Below, piece after piece: positions 20,532 through 61,687 of a stretch of DNA of 64,000 bases. A program made the position numbers and the translations under genes. Below the pieces are notes generated by a model that ran no database searches, had not been told where the DNA came from, and worked only from the letters and a program-made list of their open reading frames with translations. Origin of the DNA: Cyclobacteriaceae bacterium (GTDB lineage: Bacteria > Bacteroidota > Bacteroidia > Cytophagales > Cyclobacteriaceae); contig JANQSI010000018.1 in NCBI GenBank assembly GCA_028284125.1, positions 400,998-464,997 of the forward strand. The letters run 5' to 3'. Every line of letters begins with the position of its first letter. Position 1 is the stretch's first letter.

Positions 20532-21281
20532 GTGAGTAAATGGTTTTATTCGATCGGTTTCTTATTACTTCTTTCATGCGGTGAAAAGAAGGAATATGCT
20601 TTTGATAAGATCAACTGTGAAGAGGGAGTTGTATCGGATAACGCTAACCTAAAACGAATTTTCAAACCTTGCCGAGAGTATATCTATAGAGCCAGGTATT
20701 GGGATAGGAACTACGAGCTGATCTCGGAAGAATACATTTGGATGATGGCGACTGGAAGAGATTGGGAATACGAACCAGATTCTCAGGATGAAATTGCGAT
20801 TCAATACAAACCTGATCAAACCAAAATTGATTTCATTAAGCAGTATACCATTAACCCTGAATTTGAAAGTGGCTGGCGAGAAGGAGAAGTAACAGGAGTT
20901 ATCGAAACAGATGAAACTGTTTGGATGCACCCATTTCGATCCAATCAATACATTTTTACTGAAGTAGCTGCTTTTCCTTATGTGAAACTTCCCTTGGAGA
21001 GAGGAATTCAATGGACTTCCAGTTTGAACATTTATGAAAATTGGGGAAGATGGTCTGATAACACGCTGCAGAGTACGTACTCAGTTCTTGATTTTGAAGT
21101 GGTTGAAACTGGATTTGGAGATTTGGAGGCCTGGCATGTAAAAGCAGTTACAACCGCAACTTTTGGCACTTCCATTCATGATTTTTGGTACCATGAAGAA
21201 TATGGTTTTGTGAAAATGGTGGTCAACAATTACGAAGGACAAGTATTATCATTTGAACTAGCTGAGGTAAAAGAAGATTAA
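20532..21281 (+). CDS. predicted lipoprotein of unknown function
   Basis: GTG start, MSKWFYSIGFLLLLSCGEKKE lipobox. Confidence 0.6.
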   Translation: MSKWFYSIGFLLLLSCGEKKEYAFDKINCEEGVVSDNANLKRIFKPCREYIYRARYWDRNYELISEEYIWMMATGRDWEYEPDSQDEIAIQYKPDQTKIDFIKQYTINPEFESGWREGEVTGVIETDETVWMHPFRSNQYIFTEVAAFPYVKLPLERGIQWTSSLNIYENWGRWSDNTLQSTYSVLDFEVVETGFGDLEAWHVKAVTTATFGTSIHDFWYHEEYGFVKMVVNNYEGQVLSFELAEVKED

Positions 21282-21338
21282 AAAGTTTTTCGTTTTTTGT
21301 TTGTTTTTAAAAAATCTCCGACTTCCTTTGACCTCAAG

Positions 21339-21407
21339 ATGAACATAACACTATCATTTTATTTTAGCTTTTACTTTTTTCCTAACCAGGAAAGGGGATG
21401 GCTATAA
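21339..21407 (+). CDS. Phe/Tyr-rich attenuator leader peptide (22 aa)
   Basis: atg aac ata aca cta tca ttt tat ttt agc ttt tac ttt ttt cct aac cag gaa agg gga tgg cta taa = MNITLSFYFSFYFFPNQERGWL*; 7 of 8 residues at positions 7-14 are Phe/Tyr. Confidence 0.8.
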   Translation: MNITLSFYFSFYFFPNQERGWL

Positions 21408-21433
21408 TATAATTTGATAGAAAAAATATAGAG

Positions 21434-21463
21434 AAGCCTCCCCACCGGGAGGCTTTTTTTTTT
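21434..21463 (+). terminator. intrinsic terminator acting as attenuator upstream of the prephenate dehydratase gene
   Basis: AAGCCTCCC-cacc-GGGAGGCTT perfect 9-bp stem followed by ten T (21454-21463). Confidence 0.9.
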
Positions 21464-21473
21464 GACTAACAAA

Positions 21474-22313
21474 ATGGTAGAAAAGTTAAAAATAGCGATA
21501 CAGGGAGTTAGAGGAAGTTTCCATCACGAAGCATCCAATCATGTTTTTGGCAAGGACATTTCTTTGGTTGAATGCAAAACCTTTGAAGATGTGACCGATA
21601 GCACCAACAATGGAACCGCGGACTTTGGAATCATGGCCATAGAAAACTCCCTGGCAGGATGTATTATTCCAAACTATAACTTGTTGCGGCAGTCTGGATT
21701 GGAAGTATGTGGCGAAGTTGGGATTCGAGTCAAGTTAAATCTGCTTGCCCTGGAAGGAGATTCGATGGAGGATTTGAAAGAAATTCATTCGCACCAGATG
21801 GCATTGAGACAATGTGCTAGTTTTTTAACAACCGTCAATGGGACCAGGATTGTCGAAGCATTCGACACTGCCGGAAGTGCTCAATATATTTTGGAAAATA
21901 ACTTGAAGGGAGTCGCATCGATTGCCGGGAATCTGGCAGCTTCCGAATATCGCCTTAATGTGATAGCTGCTGGAATCGAAGATCACAAGCTCAATTACAC
22001 CCGATTTTTAGTATTGAAGAGAAACGAATCAGATCCGATTTCAGCTGAATTCAACAAAACGTCTATTTATTTTCAGACGAAACATACTCCTGGATCATTA
22101 GCGCAACTTTTATCAGTCATTAGTGGATTAGGAATCAACCTTTCCAAACTCCAATCCCATCCGGTTCCAAGTAAGAATTCTCTCTACGGATTCTTTGCCA
22201 CACTTGACTTTGACAAAGTAGAGCAGATCGAACATTTAAAAATATTATTAGAAGCAATGACCATTGATTACCAGATTTTGGGCATTTACAAAAAAGGAAA
22301 AACTCATGGTTGA
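21474..22313 (+). CDS. pheA: prephenate dehydratase
   Basis: IAIQGVRGSFHHEAS..., ACT domain (TPGSLAQLLSVISGLGINLSKLQSHPVP); track TTG start at 21462 lies inside the terminator T-tract, ATG 21474 preferred. Confidence 0.9.
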   Translation: MVEKLKIAIQGVRGSFHHEASNHVFGKDISLVECKTFEDVTDSTNNGTADFGIMAIENSLAGCIIPNYNLLRQSGLEVCGEVGIRVKLNLLALEGDSMEDLKEIHSHQMALRQCASFLTTVNGTRIVEAFDTAGSAQYILENNLKGVASIAGNLAASEYRLNVIAAGIEDHKLNYTRFLVLKRNESDPISAEFNKTSIYFQTKHTPGSLAQLLSVISGLGINLSKLQSHPVPSKNSLYGFFATLDFDKVEQIEHLKILLEAMTIDYQILGIYKKGKTHG

Positions 22314-23460
22314 TCATTTAACATCACATCGACTGTCTGGCATTGGCGAGTACTATTTTTCTAAAAAATTGAGGGAAATGGACAGGTTGAACCAAGAGGG
22401 AAAAAATGTCTTGAACCTCGGCATTGGCAGTCCTGATTTGGACCCTCCTGAGGAGGTGAAAAAAGCGCTGGTCAATGGCCTGAATGATCCAAACTTCCAT
22501 CGTTATCAGAGCTACAAAGGAATTCCAGAACTTCGAAGCGGATTTTCTGATTGGTACAAAAAGTTTTACAACGTCACTTTAGATCCGGATACAGAAATAC
22601 TCCCTTTGATGGGATCAAAAGAAGGAATCATGCACATATGCATGGCTTTTTTAAATGAGGGTGATGAAGTACTAATTCCAAATCCGGGCTATCCAACATA
22701 TGCTTCAGCAGTTAAGCTTGCCGGAAGCACACCCAATTACTACGATTTAAAAGAAGAGAATGACTACTTACCAGATCTCGAAACGCTGGAATCAACGGAT
22801 CTGAGCAAAGTGAAATTGATGTGGGTCAATTATCCGCACATGCCGACCGGTACCTCAGCCAACAGGGAAGTTTTCCAAAAGATCAGAAACTTTTGTAGTC
22901 GGCATAATATCATTTTGGTTAATGACAATCCATACAGTTTTACAATGACTGAAAAGCCTGTCAGCATTCTTGAAAACAGGGATTCAAATGAGCTTTTACT
23001 TGAATTGAACAGTTTAAGCAAGTCTCACAACATGTCTGGCTGGCGTATTGGCTCACTAAATGGAAATGCTGCCTTGATAGAAAAGGTCCTGATTTTCAAA
23101 AGCAATATGGATTCCGGAATGTTCAAGCCAGTCATGTATGCCACCGTTGAAGCGTTAAAGCTCGAACAATCCTGGTACGACTCTGTTAATGAAAAATACA
23201 ATGAACGTCGTGAGCTGGTTTACCAGATTGCGGACAAGTTAGGCTGTACCTATAGAAAAGACCAAGTAGGGATGTTTGTCTGGGCGAGAATACCGAAAGG
23301 TGAAAAAAGCGGTGAAGAATTCGCAGATAAGTTGTTGAACGAATACGCGTTGTTTGTCCCGCCGGGAATGATCTTCGGAAAAGAAGGAGATCAACACATT
23401 CGATTCTCGCTTTGCAGCGATCCTAAAATATTTAAAGAAGTACTCAAAAGAATTGATTAA
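22306..23460 (+). CDS. class I/II PLP-dependent aminotransferase
   Basis: NLGIGSPDLDPP, NPGYPTYASAVKLAGS, SLSKSHNMSGWRIG PLP-lysine motif. Confidence 0.9.
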   Translation: MVDHLTSHRLSGIGEYYFSKKLREMDRLNQEGKNVLNLGIGSPDLDPPEEVKKALVNGLNDPNFHRYQSYKGIPELRSGFSDWYKKFYNVTLDPDTEILPLMGSKEGIMHICMAFLNEGDEVLIPNPGYPTYASAVKLAGSTPNYYDLKEENDYLPDLETLESTDLSKVKLMWVNYPHMPTGTSANREVFQKIRNFCSRHNIILVNDNPYSFTMTEKPVSILENRDSNELLLELNSLSKSHNMSGWRIGSLNGNAALIEKVLIFKSNMDSGMFKPVMYATVEALKLEQSWYDSVNEKYNERRELVYQIADKLGCTYRKDQVGMFVWARIPKGEKSGEEFADKLLNEYALFVPPGMIFGKEGDQHIRFSLCSDPKIFKEVLKRID

Positions 23461-23470
23461 ATAGAAACAA

Positions 23471-24583
23471 ATGAAAATCGAACCGATAGATATATTCAAG
23501 CAAAAACGTCCGGTGATCATATCAGGACCTTGCAGCGCTGAGTCGGAAGAGCAACTGATCTCTACGTGCGAAGCAATTGCTAAAACAGGGAAAGTAGACG
23601 TGCTGCGTGCAGGCATCTGGAAACCAAGAACGAGACCGAACAACTTTGAAGGCGTTGGTGCTGTTGGATTGGAATGGCTTACCAAAGCCAGAAAGATGAC
23701 AGGTCTTCCCATTTCTGTGGAGGTGGCCAATTTCAATCATGTGTTTGAAGCGCTCAAGCAGCAAATTGATATTCTGTGGATTGGTGCCCGTACGACTGTG
23801 AACCCTTTTTCCGTGCAAGAAATCGCGGATGCTTTGAAAGGAACTGATGCGACTGTTTTTGTCAAAAATCCAATTAACGCTGATCTGGAGTTATGGACAG
23901 GGGCACTGGAACGATTGAACAAAGCCGGCATTACAAAACTTTGTATGATTCACCGTGGATTTGCTCAACATGGGAAAAGCATTTATCGAAATGAGCCAAA
24001 GTGGCAGCTGGCAGTTGAGATGAAACGACGATTTCCGGAAATTCCAATGGTGTGCGATCCAAGCCACATCACAGGATCAAGAGAAATGTTGCAGGATGTA
24101 TCACAACAGGCACTTGACATGGATTTCGATGGTTTGATGATTGAATCTCACATCAATCCTGAGGTGGCGTTGAGTGATAAGAATCAACAAGTAACACCTG
24201 ATTCGTTAGAGGAAATTTTGGACAATCTGATCGTGCGTCAACCAGCGGTTGTAGATCAAGAACTTAATTCTCAACTAGAAATTCTTCGACAGCAAATAGA
24301 TATCATTGACGATGATCTTTTGAAGTTGCTCGGAGAGCGCATGAAGGTGGCTGAAAATATTGGGCTTGTCAAGAAAGAAAAAGGAGTGACCATTTTACAA
24401 ACAAAGAGATGGGAAGAAATCATTGAGAAAGCTACTGAGAATGGAAAACTCCAGGGGTTGTCCAAGAAATTCATGATTCGATATTTAAAAGCGGTTCACC
24501 AGGAATCCATTGATCATCAAAATGAGATCATGAATTCAGAGAAAAGTCTTGATGTAAGTGCTGCGGAAGGGGGTGTAATTTGA
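23471..24583 (+). CDS. bifunctional DAHP synthase / chorismate mutase
   Basis: N-terminal type I DAHPS/KDO8PS fold (IISGPCSAES...CDPSHITGSR) plus C-terminal AroQ chorismate mutase (EILRQQIDIIDDDLLKLLGERMKVAENIG). Confidence 0.9.
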   Translation: MKIEPIDIFKQKRPVIISGPCSAESEEQLISTCEAIAKTGKVDVLRAGIWKPRTRPNNFEGVGAVGLEWLTKARKMTGLPISVEVANFNHVFEALKQQIDILWIGARTTVNPFSVQEIADALKGTDATVFVKNPINADLELWTGALERLNKAGITKLCMIHRGFAQHGKSIYRNEPKWQLAVEMKRRFPEIPMVCDPSHITGSREMLQDVSQQALDMDFDGLMIESHINPEVALSDKNQQVTPDSLEEILDNLIVRQPAVVDQELNSQLEILRQQIDIIDDDLLKLLGERMKVAENIGLVKKEKGVTILQTKRWEEIIEKATENGKLQGLSKKFMIRYLKAVHQESIDHQNEIMNSEKSLDVSAAEGGVI

Positions 24584-59071: not shown

Positions 59072-61687
59072 TCACTCATTTCTTAGTATCTCCGCCGGAT
59101 TTGTTCGCATCGCTTTCCAGGTTTGAGTCCCAATAGTGAGTCCGCCAACCACTAGGATAAATAGAAAGGCAATCCCAATGATGTCGAAACCAAAACTTAT
59201 TCGATAAGCGAAAAGCTCTAACCAGGCTTTGTTCCCGAAGAAAGAAATTAAGCTACCGATCAATGTGGAAACGATGATCATGATGAAGAAGCTTTTACCA
59301 AGAATGAAAACAAGTGTTCTTCCATCTGCTCCGAGGATTTTTCGAATCCCTACTTCTTTCAGTCGAGTCTGAATAGAATAAGTAGCAATTCCAAGAAGTC
59401 CCATGCCGGCGATTACGATACTTAGGATTGAAATAAGTCCTACGATGTAAACGATATCGTAAAACACCGCGTAGAATTCTTCAATTTGCTCGTCAAAATA
59501 TTTGTATTCAAAATCATGATTTGGATCAAACCCGGCCCAGGTATTTTCTAATTGCTTCAATTCTTCGATCCGGTTAGCTCCGGAAACTTTTACTTGTGCC
59601 CATTCAAATTCCTCTGGGTTATATCGCAGGAGCAATGGTTTGATATCCATATAGAGGATCATGAAGTTGTAGTTTTTTACTACACCTACAATGTTCACAT
59701 TGGTGCTGTCCTCAAGAATAAGATTTCCGCCTATGGCGTCTTCCGCGGTTTCATAACCAAAGGATTCCACCGCTTCTTCATTGATAATGATCTCTCTTTC
59801 CTCTGTTTGTCCTGGGGTAAAATTGGAACCAGCGATTAATTCAAGCTTTAGGTTCTCAATGTAGTTTTCGTCCACAGAAAAGAAATTGTATTTCACTTCT
59901 TCATCTGTCACATTTTGTCTAACTACAATATCATCATGCCTGCCTATACTAGGGATGTTGTTCGCTCCCGATACCAATTGGACGAAAGACAGTTTTTCAA
60001 GTTCCGGTCTTAATAGATCGTAATCCTGACCCTGGAGATCAATGTTCACAATATCGGCTTTTGCAAAACCATAGTCTTTGGTAATCATGAATTTGATCTG
60101 TCGATGCACCAAAGTCGCTGAGATAATCAGAACAATCGATATGACCAATTGCGTCACAATCAAGGATTTTCGTAAACCAATCTTTGACATTTTAGGACCG
60201 TTCATTCCCTTGAGCGCATTGATCGGTTTAACCGATGACATGTAAAGTGACGGGAAGAAACCTGTAAAAAGCCCAGTTAGCAGACTGAAGATCAAAAACT
60301 GAACATAAACTTTAGTGTCAGGATTAAGCTTCCATTCCAAAAGCGAACTCATGCTCAAACTTTCAAATGCAGGAATCAATAGCGTTAAAAGTCCGATGGC
60401 AATTACCAGTGAGAATAAAGAAACCAATACGGCTTCAATGACAAACTGAATAACGACTTGACTCTTCGTAGAACCCATTACCTTTCTCACCCCAACTTCC
60501 TTGAATCTTGTGAGCGCTCGTGCCGTGGTGAGATTCGCATAATTGAATGCTGCACAGGTCATGATCAAAATGGCCAATACCACTAATCCATAGATAAAAA
60601 AGTTAGGCATGGATTGTCCTATCTGATTTCCCATTAATGGACCGGGGGTAATATTGGTCATTTTTTGCATGCCGAAGATGACATCATATTCTGAGTCCTC
60701 ATCGTAATTTTCATCTGCCCAACGATCAAGTTCGTCTTGTAAGTTTTCTGGAGACGTTCCAGAACCGAATTTGAAATAGATCCAGGCACTTGAAAGTTTA
60801 TCCCAGTCATTCAAGGACTCAGATAGCTTGCCCTGTTTCTCAAAAGAAGCTACGGTGGAATAAGAGGCCAGGGCTTCAAAACTCACATGGGTTTTTCCTG
60901 GTATCTCTTTCAGAACACCTGTTACTTTGAAGGGACCAAGATCACCAACCACTAATTCCTGTCCAATCGGGTCTTTATCTCTAAAGAATTTCTCAGCGAT
61001 ATCATTTCTCAAGACGACAGTATTTGGTTCTACTAGTGCTGTTGACTTGTCTCCTTGCTCGAGTTCTAGTCCAAAAAGCGCAATAGCTTCAGGATTGGTA
61101 TAATATCCTGAAAGCGTGATAGCTTTTCCATTATCAATTATTTCACCGGAGAATCCTCTACGAAGTGGAACCACTTCCTCAAGGCCGGTGTATTCATTTG
61201 TGAGTTTATCGACTAGTGGTAAAGGAGTGGTAGCAAGCCAAAGGTTAACATCATTGAGACGCTTATGCTTGAGTCTGTAAATGTTGTCTCTTTCAGCATT
61301 GAATTCGTCATAGCTTGTTTGATCATCAATAGTGGCAATAATTAGTAGGCAAATGGCCATGGAAATTGCAAGACCAACCACATTGATTGTAGTGAAAGCC
61401 AAGTTTCTTTTAATGTTACGTAAAGCAACGAGTGTGTAGTTTTTAAGCATAATCGTAGGCGTAAATGTTTTTCTGGTTGATTTCTTTCTTAATGTGAATC
61501 GGTTAATAAATCGGATGACATCCATCCAATAGAGAAGGTTAGATTTCAACCGCGAATGTGACTCCAGGTACAGTTCGTATCGTTCATGTAAGTCACCTTG
61601 AATGGATTCCCCAAGTTCATTTTGGCAATACCAGTTAAAAAACCAATCTGCCAGTCGAGGAGGCGTTATGTTCTTTCGAGAACTCAT
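59072..61687 (-). CDS. FtsX/MacB-like permease with N-terminal permease prefix domain (no ATPase)
   Basis: LGESIQGDLHERYELYLESH prefix; FKEVGVRKVMGS and LKEVGIRKILGAD FtsX-like blocks; C-terminal NPAEILRNE. Confidence 0.9.
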   Translation of the reverse strand: MSSRKNITPPRLADWFFNWYCQNELGESIQGDLHERYELYLESHSRLKSNLLYWMDVIRFINRFTLRKKSTRKTFTPTIMLKNYTLVALRNIKRNLAFTTINVVGLAISMAICLLIIATIDDQTSYDEFNAERDNIYRLKHKRLNDVNLWLATTPLPLVDKLTNEYTGLEEVVPLRRGFSGEIIDNGKAITLSGYYTNPEAIALFGLELEQGDKSTALVEPNTVVLRNDIAEKFFRDKDPIGQELVVGDLGPFKVTGVLKEIPGKTHVSFEALASYSTVASFEKQGKLSESLNDWDKLSSAWIYFKFGSGTSPENLQDELDRWADENYDEDSEYDVIFGMQKMTNITPGPLMGNQIGQSMPNFFIYGLVVLAILIMTCAAFNYANLTTARALTRFKEVGVRKVMGSTKSQVVIQFVIEAVLVSLFSLVIAIGLLTLLIPAFESLSMSSLLEWKLNPDTKVYVQFLIFSLLTGLFTGFFPSLYMSSVKPINALKGMNGPKMSKIGLRKSLIVTQLVISIVLIISATLVHRQIKFMITKDYGFAKADIVNIDLQGQDYDLLRPELEKLSFVQLVSGANNIPSIGRHDDIVVRQNVTDEEVKYNFFSVDENYIENLKLELIAGSNFTPGQTEEREIIINEEAVESFGYETAEDAIGGNLILEDSTNVNIVGVVKNYNFMILYMDIKPLLLRYNPEEFEWAQVKVSGANRIEELKQLENTWAGFDPNHDFEYKYFDEQIEEFYAVFYDIVYIVGLISILSIVIAGMGLLGIATYSIQTRLKEVGIRKILGADGRTLVFILGKSFFIMIIVSTLIGSLISFFGNKAWLELFAYRISFGFDIIGIAFLFILVVGGLTIGTQTWKAMRTNPAEILRNE

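Follow-up and report, generated by a model that had tools for sequence, protein, structure and literature searches.

A ribosome-mediated transcription attenuator of the pheL/trpL type, which would sense charged tRNA-Phe and probably also charged tRNA-Tyr, very probably precedes pheA in the window, i.e. the stretch of 64,000 nucleotides of Cyclobacteriaceae DNA analyzed here; we assign this reading a probability of about 0.93. The mechanism of leader-peptide attenuation was established in enterobacteria and is found in textbooks. The anatomy of the region, its conservation, the co-variation of its paired strands and the spacing of its parts are read directly from the sequence. A leader-peptide attenuator had already been proposed at this place by a sequence-only reading, and the proposal is supported by conservation throughout the phylum and by strands that vary together, the regulation itself being predicted. 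The genes under its putative control (as all features of the window below, on the forward strand) are pheA, encoding a prephenate dehydratase with a PDT and a weak ACT domain (21474..22313; PF00800, E 4e-54), a class I/II aminotransferase (22306..23460; PF00155, E 1e-62) and a DAHP synthase fused to chorismate mutase (23471..24583; PF00793 and PF01817); their order is conserved, and the domain matches agree with the operon content assigned previously (prephenate dehydratase, aminotransferase, DAHP synthase/chorismate mutase).

The leader peptide ORF, MNITLSFYFSFYFFPNQERGWL, extends from an ATG at 21339 to a TAA at 21405-21407 (21339..21407) and carries seven Phe/Tyr codons in eight. These control codons, F Y F S F Y F F (21357..21380), are given by direct translation and by a frame-specific restriction to Phe/Tyr codons in the homologues; positions 21357-21365 encode F-Y-F and 21369-21380 encode F-Y-F-F, with AGC (Ser) in between. 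An ATG ORF equally rich in Phe/Tyr arose in just 45 of 20,000 dinucleotide shuffles of 21282-21480, and the pheA leader is the single site picked in the 64-kb window, on both strands, by the ORF and terminator detector described below. Of the 718 T[T/A]N codons in the leader runs of the homologues, 717 end in T or C and one in G; moreover, run codons specify Phe or Tyr in 627 of 810 cases in frame, against 204-221 in the other frames. The in-frame excess and the T/C third base together indicate that selection acts on codons, not on T content.

An intrinsic terminator (21430..21463; -19.7 kcal/mol) is located between the leader ORF and the first gene. Its arms are AAGCCTCCC (21434-21442) and GGGAGGCTT (21447-21455), separated by the loop CACC (21443-21446), and the predicted stem reaches 13 pairs once flanking A-U and G-U pairs are counted; ten Ts (21454-21463), the first of them within the stem, precede the pheA ATG at 21474. 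Region 2, the 5' strand of the antiterminator, lies in the last leader codons (GGGGATGGCT, 21394..21403) and pairs with AGCCTCCCC (21435-21443) in a duplex of -18.1 kcal/mol, with a bulged T at 21399. Region 3 (21433..21443), defined by folding and arm analysis, is common to antiterminator and terminator: the antiterminator takes the 5' arm of the terminator, and the two structures are mutually exclusive. The leader ORF and its Phe/Tyr codons, as reported by the sequence-only reading, agree base for base with our own; the terminator hairpin with its ten Ts is present exactly as it had been described, and both strands of the competing pairing, with its one bulged U, were found again. A further element, absent from that reading, is a 1:2 hairpin (21351..21420) with an outer stem at 21351-21356 / 21415-21420 and an inner pairing that sequesters region 2; it belongs to the best fold of 21330-21480. 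The folding check proposed for this segment was run and gave -45.2 kcal/mol versus -24.6 +/- 3.7 for shuffles (z -5.6), a stability far beyond that of the shuffles. Region 2 begins 14 nt past the final Phe codon, and a single nucleotide separates its end from the stop codon; a stall would leave it free, and a ribosome at the stop codon would cover it.

We infer from the sequence where transcription starts, that the ORF is translated, how the leader responds to amino acids and whether Phe and Tyr both matter. In the proposed mechanism, RNA polymerase would start just upstream of the leader ORF and a ribosome would translate the 22-codon peptide behind it. When Phe or Tyr is short, the ribosome would stall in the F-Y run (21357-21380) with its front edge just short of region 2 (21394-21403), which would be released from the 1:2 hairpin; freed region 2 would pair with region 3 (21435-21443) and block the terminator, and pheA, the aminotransferase and the DAHP synthase/chorismate mutase would be transcribed. 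When both amino acids are plentiful, the ribosome would proceed to the stop codon (21405-21407) and cover region 2, and the terminator (21434-21463) would end transcription. With no translation at all, the 1:2 hairpin would form and the terminator would win.

The comparison included pheA relatives from the window's own family and 80 named genomes, with alignment, covering Hymenobacter, Chitinophagaceae, Flavobacteriaceae, Marinifilum, Alistipes, Parabacteroides and others. The detector, which requires an ATG ORF of 10-45 aa with six or more Phe/Tyr among 10 residues and a terminator within 130 nt, was positive upstream of 71 of the 80 pheA genes and in none of the 1971 control windows taken from these loci. 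Seven of the nine negative loci (L073, L074, L076, L107, L109, L115 and L126) have leaders recognizable by eye, missed because of a terminator mismatch, a GTG start or a short stem. Of the 79 pheA upstream regions that could be assessed, 78 thus have a Phe/Tyr-rich leader ORF, L131 being the sole assessable locus without one and L127 being cut by its contig. At the level of sequence, the presence of Phe/Tyr leader, terminator and competing stem before pheA is phylum-wide in Bacteroidota. In the window's family, a pheA gene that stands first in its operon has the leader, and the same leader occurs in a locus of Ekhidna (L071, G008:C149), a member of the Reichenbachiellaceae (Cytophagales, Bacteroidota). 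No leader was seen in many members of the window's family in which pheA stands directly behind another gene, mostly one for a membrane protein or aroA; this branch (L040-L047, L052-L055, L057-L059, L061, L063-L069 and others of the family) apparently underwent a loss or change of regulation.

The distribution bears on a rival explanation, according to which the hairpin does no more than terminate the gene before it (20532-21281) and the Phe/Tyr ORF arose by chance in T-rich DNA. That gene does run in the same direction, with 57 nt between its end and the leader ATG, and the region is T-rich; however, the same layout is found before pheA in unrelated neighborhoods across the phylum and in 0 of the 1971 control windows, the codons are confined to T[T/A][T/C] in frame, and the strands of the 2:3 and 1:2 pairings track each other, so we hold this explanation to be extremely improbable.

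The attenuator is further supported by the pairing itself, which was studied in 89 non-redundant leaders out of 95 collected. The codons that follow the Phe/Tyr run contain region 2, a repeat of the terminator's 3' arm, and therefore both can pair with region 3. The letters of the arms vary and the pairing is kept: GGGGATGGCT/AGCCTCCCC in the window corresponds to CGGGACT/AGTCCCG in Flavobacteriaceae, CGAGGCT/AGTCTCG in L147, GGCAGGA/TCCTGCC in L150 and CCGAGATC/GGGTCTCGG in G081. In swapped-partner permutations, which ignore shared ancestry and whose counts are therefore support and not probabilities, the mean 2:3 duplex over the 89 leaders was -15.7 kcal/mol with the own arm versus -12.0 +/- 0.3 with arms dealt among genomes (reached in 0 of 5000 permutations), and the 1:2 pairing -15.4 versus -11.3 when swapped (0 of 5000); within clades, the 2:3 value was reached in 209 of 5000 permutations for the Ekhidna-like group (8 sequences), 87 for Flavobacteriaceae, 2 for other family members and 0 for the rest. 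The gain in the Ekhidna-like group is modest because its arms are nearly identical. Region 2 of the window pairs better with its own arm than with all but one of the 88 other arms. Pair counting on a MAFFT alignment of the eight Ekhidna-like leaders was set aside, the terminator loop being misplaced there, and the swapped-partner permutations were used instead. Conservation of the Phe/Tyr ORF and co-varying stems in relatives had been suggested in advance as a check, and loss of the ORF or of the competing stem in orthologous regions as a sign against attenuation; both turned out to be conserved before pheA across the phylum, the ORF with its terminator being detected automatically in 71 of 80 cases, and the arms change together in 2:3 as in 1:2.

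A ribosome with a codon in its A site covers about 9-10 nt beyond that codon. Region 2 starts to pair at a median of 10 nt past the last Phe/Tyr codon, and this spacing is 7-11 nt in 72 of the 95 leaders. In a simple three-state model, which folds only the RNA left free by the ribosome, the terminator forms in 86 of 89 leaders with no ribosome, the antiterminator in 84 of 89 with the ribosome stalled at the last Phe/Tyr codon, and the terminator in 89 of 89 with the ribosome at the stop codon. Some Chitinophagaceae have 27-33 nt from the start of region 2 to the last base of the stop codon, and therefore a ribosome standing at that codon would not cover all of region 2.

What is kept across leaders also speaks about the peptide. 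Aromatic-rich peptides could act at membranes, and a leader peptide with a role in trans is known elsewhere (peTrpL, PMC7298713); on this precedent the short ORF might encode a functional hydrophobic micropeptide whose place before pheA is secondary. We consider this scarcely credible, because only the Phe/Tyr content and the codons encoding region 2 are kept, and the other residues and the length (18-44 aa) are free to vary.

Terminator/antiterminator switches are also used by T-boxes, metabolite riboswitches and RNA-binding regulatory proteins, any of which could in principle make the leader answer another signal. No Rfam T-box match was found in the window, nor any match to Bacteroid-trp (RF01692), whose best match in the genome, located elsewhere, scores 25.9 bits against a cut-off of 49. 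Only a leader-peptide family reaches its Rfam gathering score, namely Phe_leader (RF01859; 21338..21462, 57.3 bits, gathering 55), and the conserved codons and their spacing to region 2 are readable only by a ribosome; another signal is therefore highly unlikely.

The short leader ORF is rich in codons for the products of the operon, and ribosome-mediated attenuation would likely sense both Phe and Tyr. The mean is 5.6 Phe codons and 3.4 Tyr codons per leader; Phe occurs in every leader and Tyr in all but one, and the final control codon is Phe in 76 of 95. The usual operon comprises pheA, aminotransferase, tyrA and DAHPS-CM (48 of 71 leader loci), and 18 more loci have pheA, aminotransferase and tyrA. 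Since most homologous operons carry tyrA, Phe and Tyr are both operon products. The operon of the window is without tyrA, yet Tyr codons are present in its leader; tyrA of this genome is on another contig and no leader was found upstream of it, and Tyr sensing is therefore of less obvious use there.

A Bacteroidota-type promoter directly before the leader ATG, unmentioned in the sequence-only reading, is suggested by its motifs. The putative sigma-A promoter (21300..21330) consists of TTTG at 21300-21303, of the -33 type, and TTCCTTTG at 21323-21330, which has one mismatch to the -7 box TAnnTTTG; transcription is predicted to start at about 21335, leaving a leader 5' UTR of 3-4 nt. An exact TAnnTTTG stands ahead of 41 of the 95 leaders, against a background of 0.7%; in most of these, 4-10 nt separate it from the leader ATG (5-8 nt in 29 of 41), and a T-rich/TTTG -33 element lies at constant spacing from the -7 box across leaders. 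With the -7 box placed at positions -12 to -5 (PMC9723704), its closeness to the ATG predicts a 5' UTR of about 0-6 nt in the leaders with an exact box. In most Flavobacteriaceae leaders a 5' UTR of about 14 nt is predicted. As far as we know, initiation in Bacteroidota is not led by a Shine-Dalgarno sequence.

In some loci a second Phe/Tyr leader ORF follows the first, the pair being located about 70-300 nt upstream of pheA: L072, L073, L075 and L077 in Hymenobacter, and L078, L080, L082, L089, L093 and L098 in Chitinophaga. For both leaders of L078, L080, L082 and L089 the detector finds a terminator and a 2:3 alternative; in the remaining tandem loci one or both hairpins are mismatched beyond its tolerance and are seen by eye only. 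Two short ORFs in one leader are known from Salmonella mgtCBR (PMC3641672), which is a virulence/Mg2+ transport operon, whereas both leaders of Hymenobacter and Chitinophaga have the same Phe/Tyr codons. A wider picture can be advanced tentatively, at somewhat less than even odds: Bacteroidota would possess their own phylum-wide, convergent family of dual Phe/Tyr attenuators on nearly leaderless mRNAs (start codon about 0-6 nt from the 5' end, without Shine-Dalgarno), and in at least two lineages, Hymenobacter and Chitinophaga, two complete attenuators in series would form a two-stage gate.

Other amino-acid operons of the same genome were also inspected. A His leader, MKTKRLHHHLHHYNFSLEEVGR, followed by the terminator GCCCGTCGGATTACCGTCGGGCTTTTTT, precedes the his operon (L152, G000:C5; ORF from about L152:1145, hisG at 129344). 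A Trp leader, MNNKTYWWWISRILC, with the terminator GAAACCCGCC/GGCGGGTTTT, lies before trpE (L153, G000:C8, minus strand; trpE domain 59325-59747) and is unrecognized by Rfam Bacteroid-trp. An Ile/Leu/Val leader, MKNILSNILVIINVIIIYDMS, is located upstream of ilvD at 248588 (L154, G000:C5; ORF from L154:1260), and its region 2, GAGTTGAGAAGG, is exactly complementary to CCTTCTCAACTC of the terminator. At the end of the trp operon (L159:1146-2894, G000:C8, minus strand) lie a second DAHP synthase and what seems, judging by its sequence alone, to be an aromatic amino acid hydroxylase. No leader was found at thrA, examined as a contrast, and no type II DAHP synthase was found in the genome. Two DAHP synthase genes were found, one in the operon with the Phe/Tyr leader and one in the operon with the Trp leader. 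Together with the pheA leader, the His, Trp and Ile/Leu/Val leaders suggest that attenuation is one of the principal ways in which these bacteria control their amino-acid operons.

Attenuation of pheA in Bacteroidota is not wholly new, having been hinted at in the parts of two studies considered here. For the operon pheA>hisHb>aroA-aroQ>tyrA of Bacteroides thetaiotaomicron, of the same type and from the same phylum, a putative attenuator from Merino's database is listed in Table 7 of PMC1173090, where neither a leader peptide nor comparative evidence is given. In Flavobacterium psychrophilum, a structured 5' element upstream of the same gene, conserved in Flavobacteriaceae, has been described together with strong clues for leader-peptide attenuation before amino-acid operons (PMC9723704); the main text of that study gives no detail of the pheA mechanism and no Rfam match. 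Short ORFs resembling leader peptides have been noted in B. thetaiotaomicron (PMC7366714), and our literature search on pheA attenuation in Bacteroidetes, the comparative work of Vitreschak 2004 being outside its scope, retrieved nothing past the papers cited here. Bacteroid-trp RNA (RF01692), listed as a cis-regulatory RNA motif for Bacteroidetes (Weinberg 2010, PMC2864571), has a name that suggests the trp leader and is a family distinct from the Phe/Tyr leader. The present analysis adds the leader peptide itself, its phylum-wide conservation, the co-variation of the competing stems, the spacing to the ribosome edge, the near-leaderless placement of the promoter and the tandem forms. The 95 leaders, diverse in sequence, are a ready comparative data set for an RNA family; they also offer a clean system for asking by what means ribosomes could load onto so short a 5' end quickly enough to keep up with RNA polymerase.

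A known system of similar anatomy is the enterobacterial pheL-pheA attenuator (RF01859), which shares with the window a Phe-rich leader ORF, the 1:2, 2:3 and 3:4 alternatives and a terminator before prephenate dehydratase; unlike it, the Bacteroidota leaders mix Phe and Tyr codons and have region 2 inside the ORF, and the operon consists of separate pheA, aminotransferase, (tyrA) and DAHPS-CM. The full-length Rfam match above gathering and a similar terminator, GCCTCCC/GGGAGGC, might suggest a working leader that descends from the enterobacterial pheL through transfer. This descent appears unlikely, since same-genus relatives score 53.5, 50.9 and about 37-39 bits, other family members lower, and none of 31 further leader loci (two scans, of 16 and 15 pheA loci) reaches any Rfam leader family; besides, the peptide differs in its Tyr codons and in the position of region 2. 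The letters of the terminator change freely in the lineage, and therefore the likeness of one genome to pheL is probably coincidental. With the relatives below the RF01859 threshold and the extra likeness confined to one lineage, convergence fits better than descent. Of the pheL/pheA-like logic recognized by the sequence-only reading, the anatomy of the mechanism thus holds and shared descent is improbable: the likeness to enterobacterial pheL is probably one of working.
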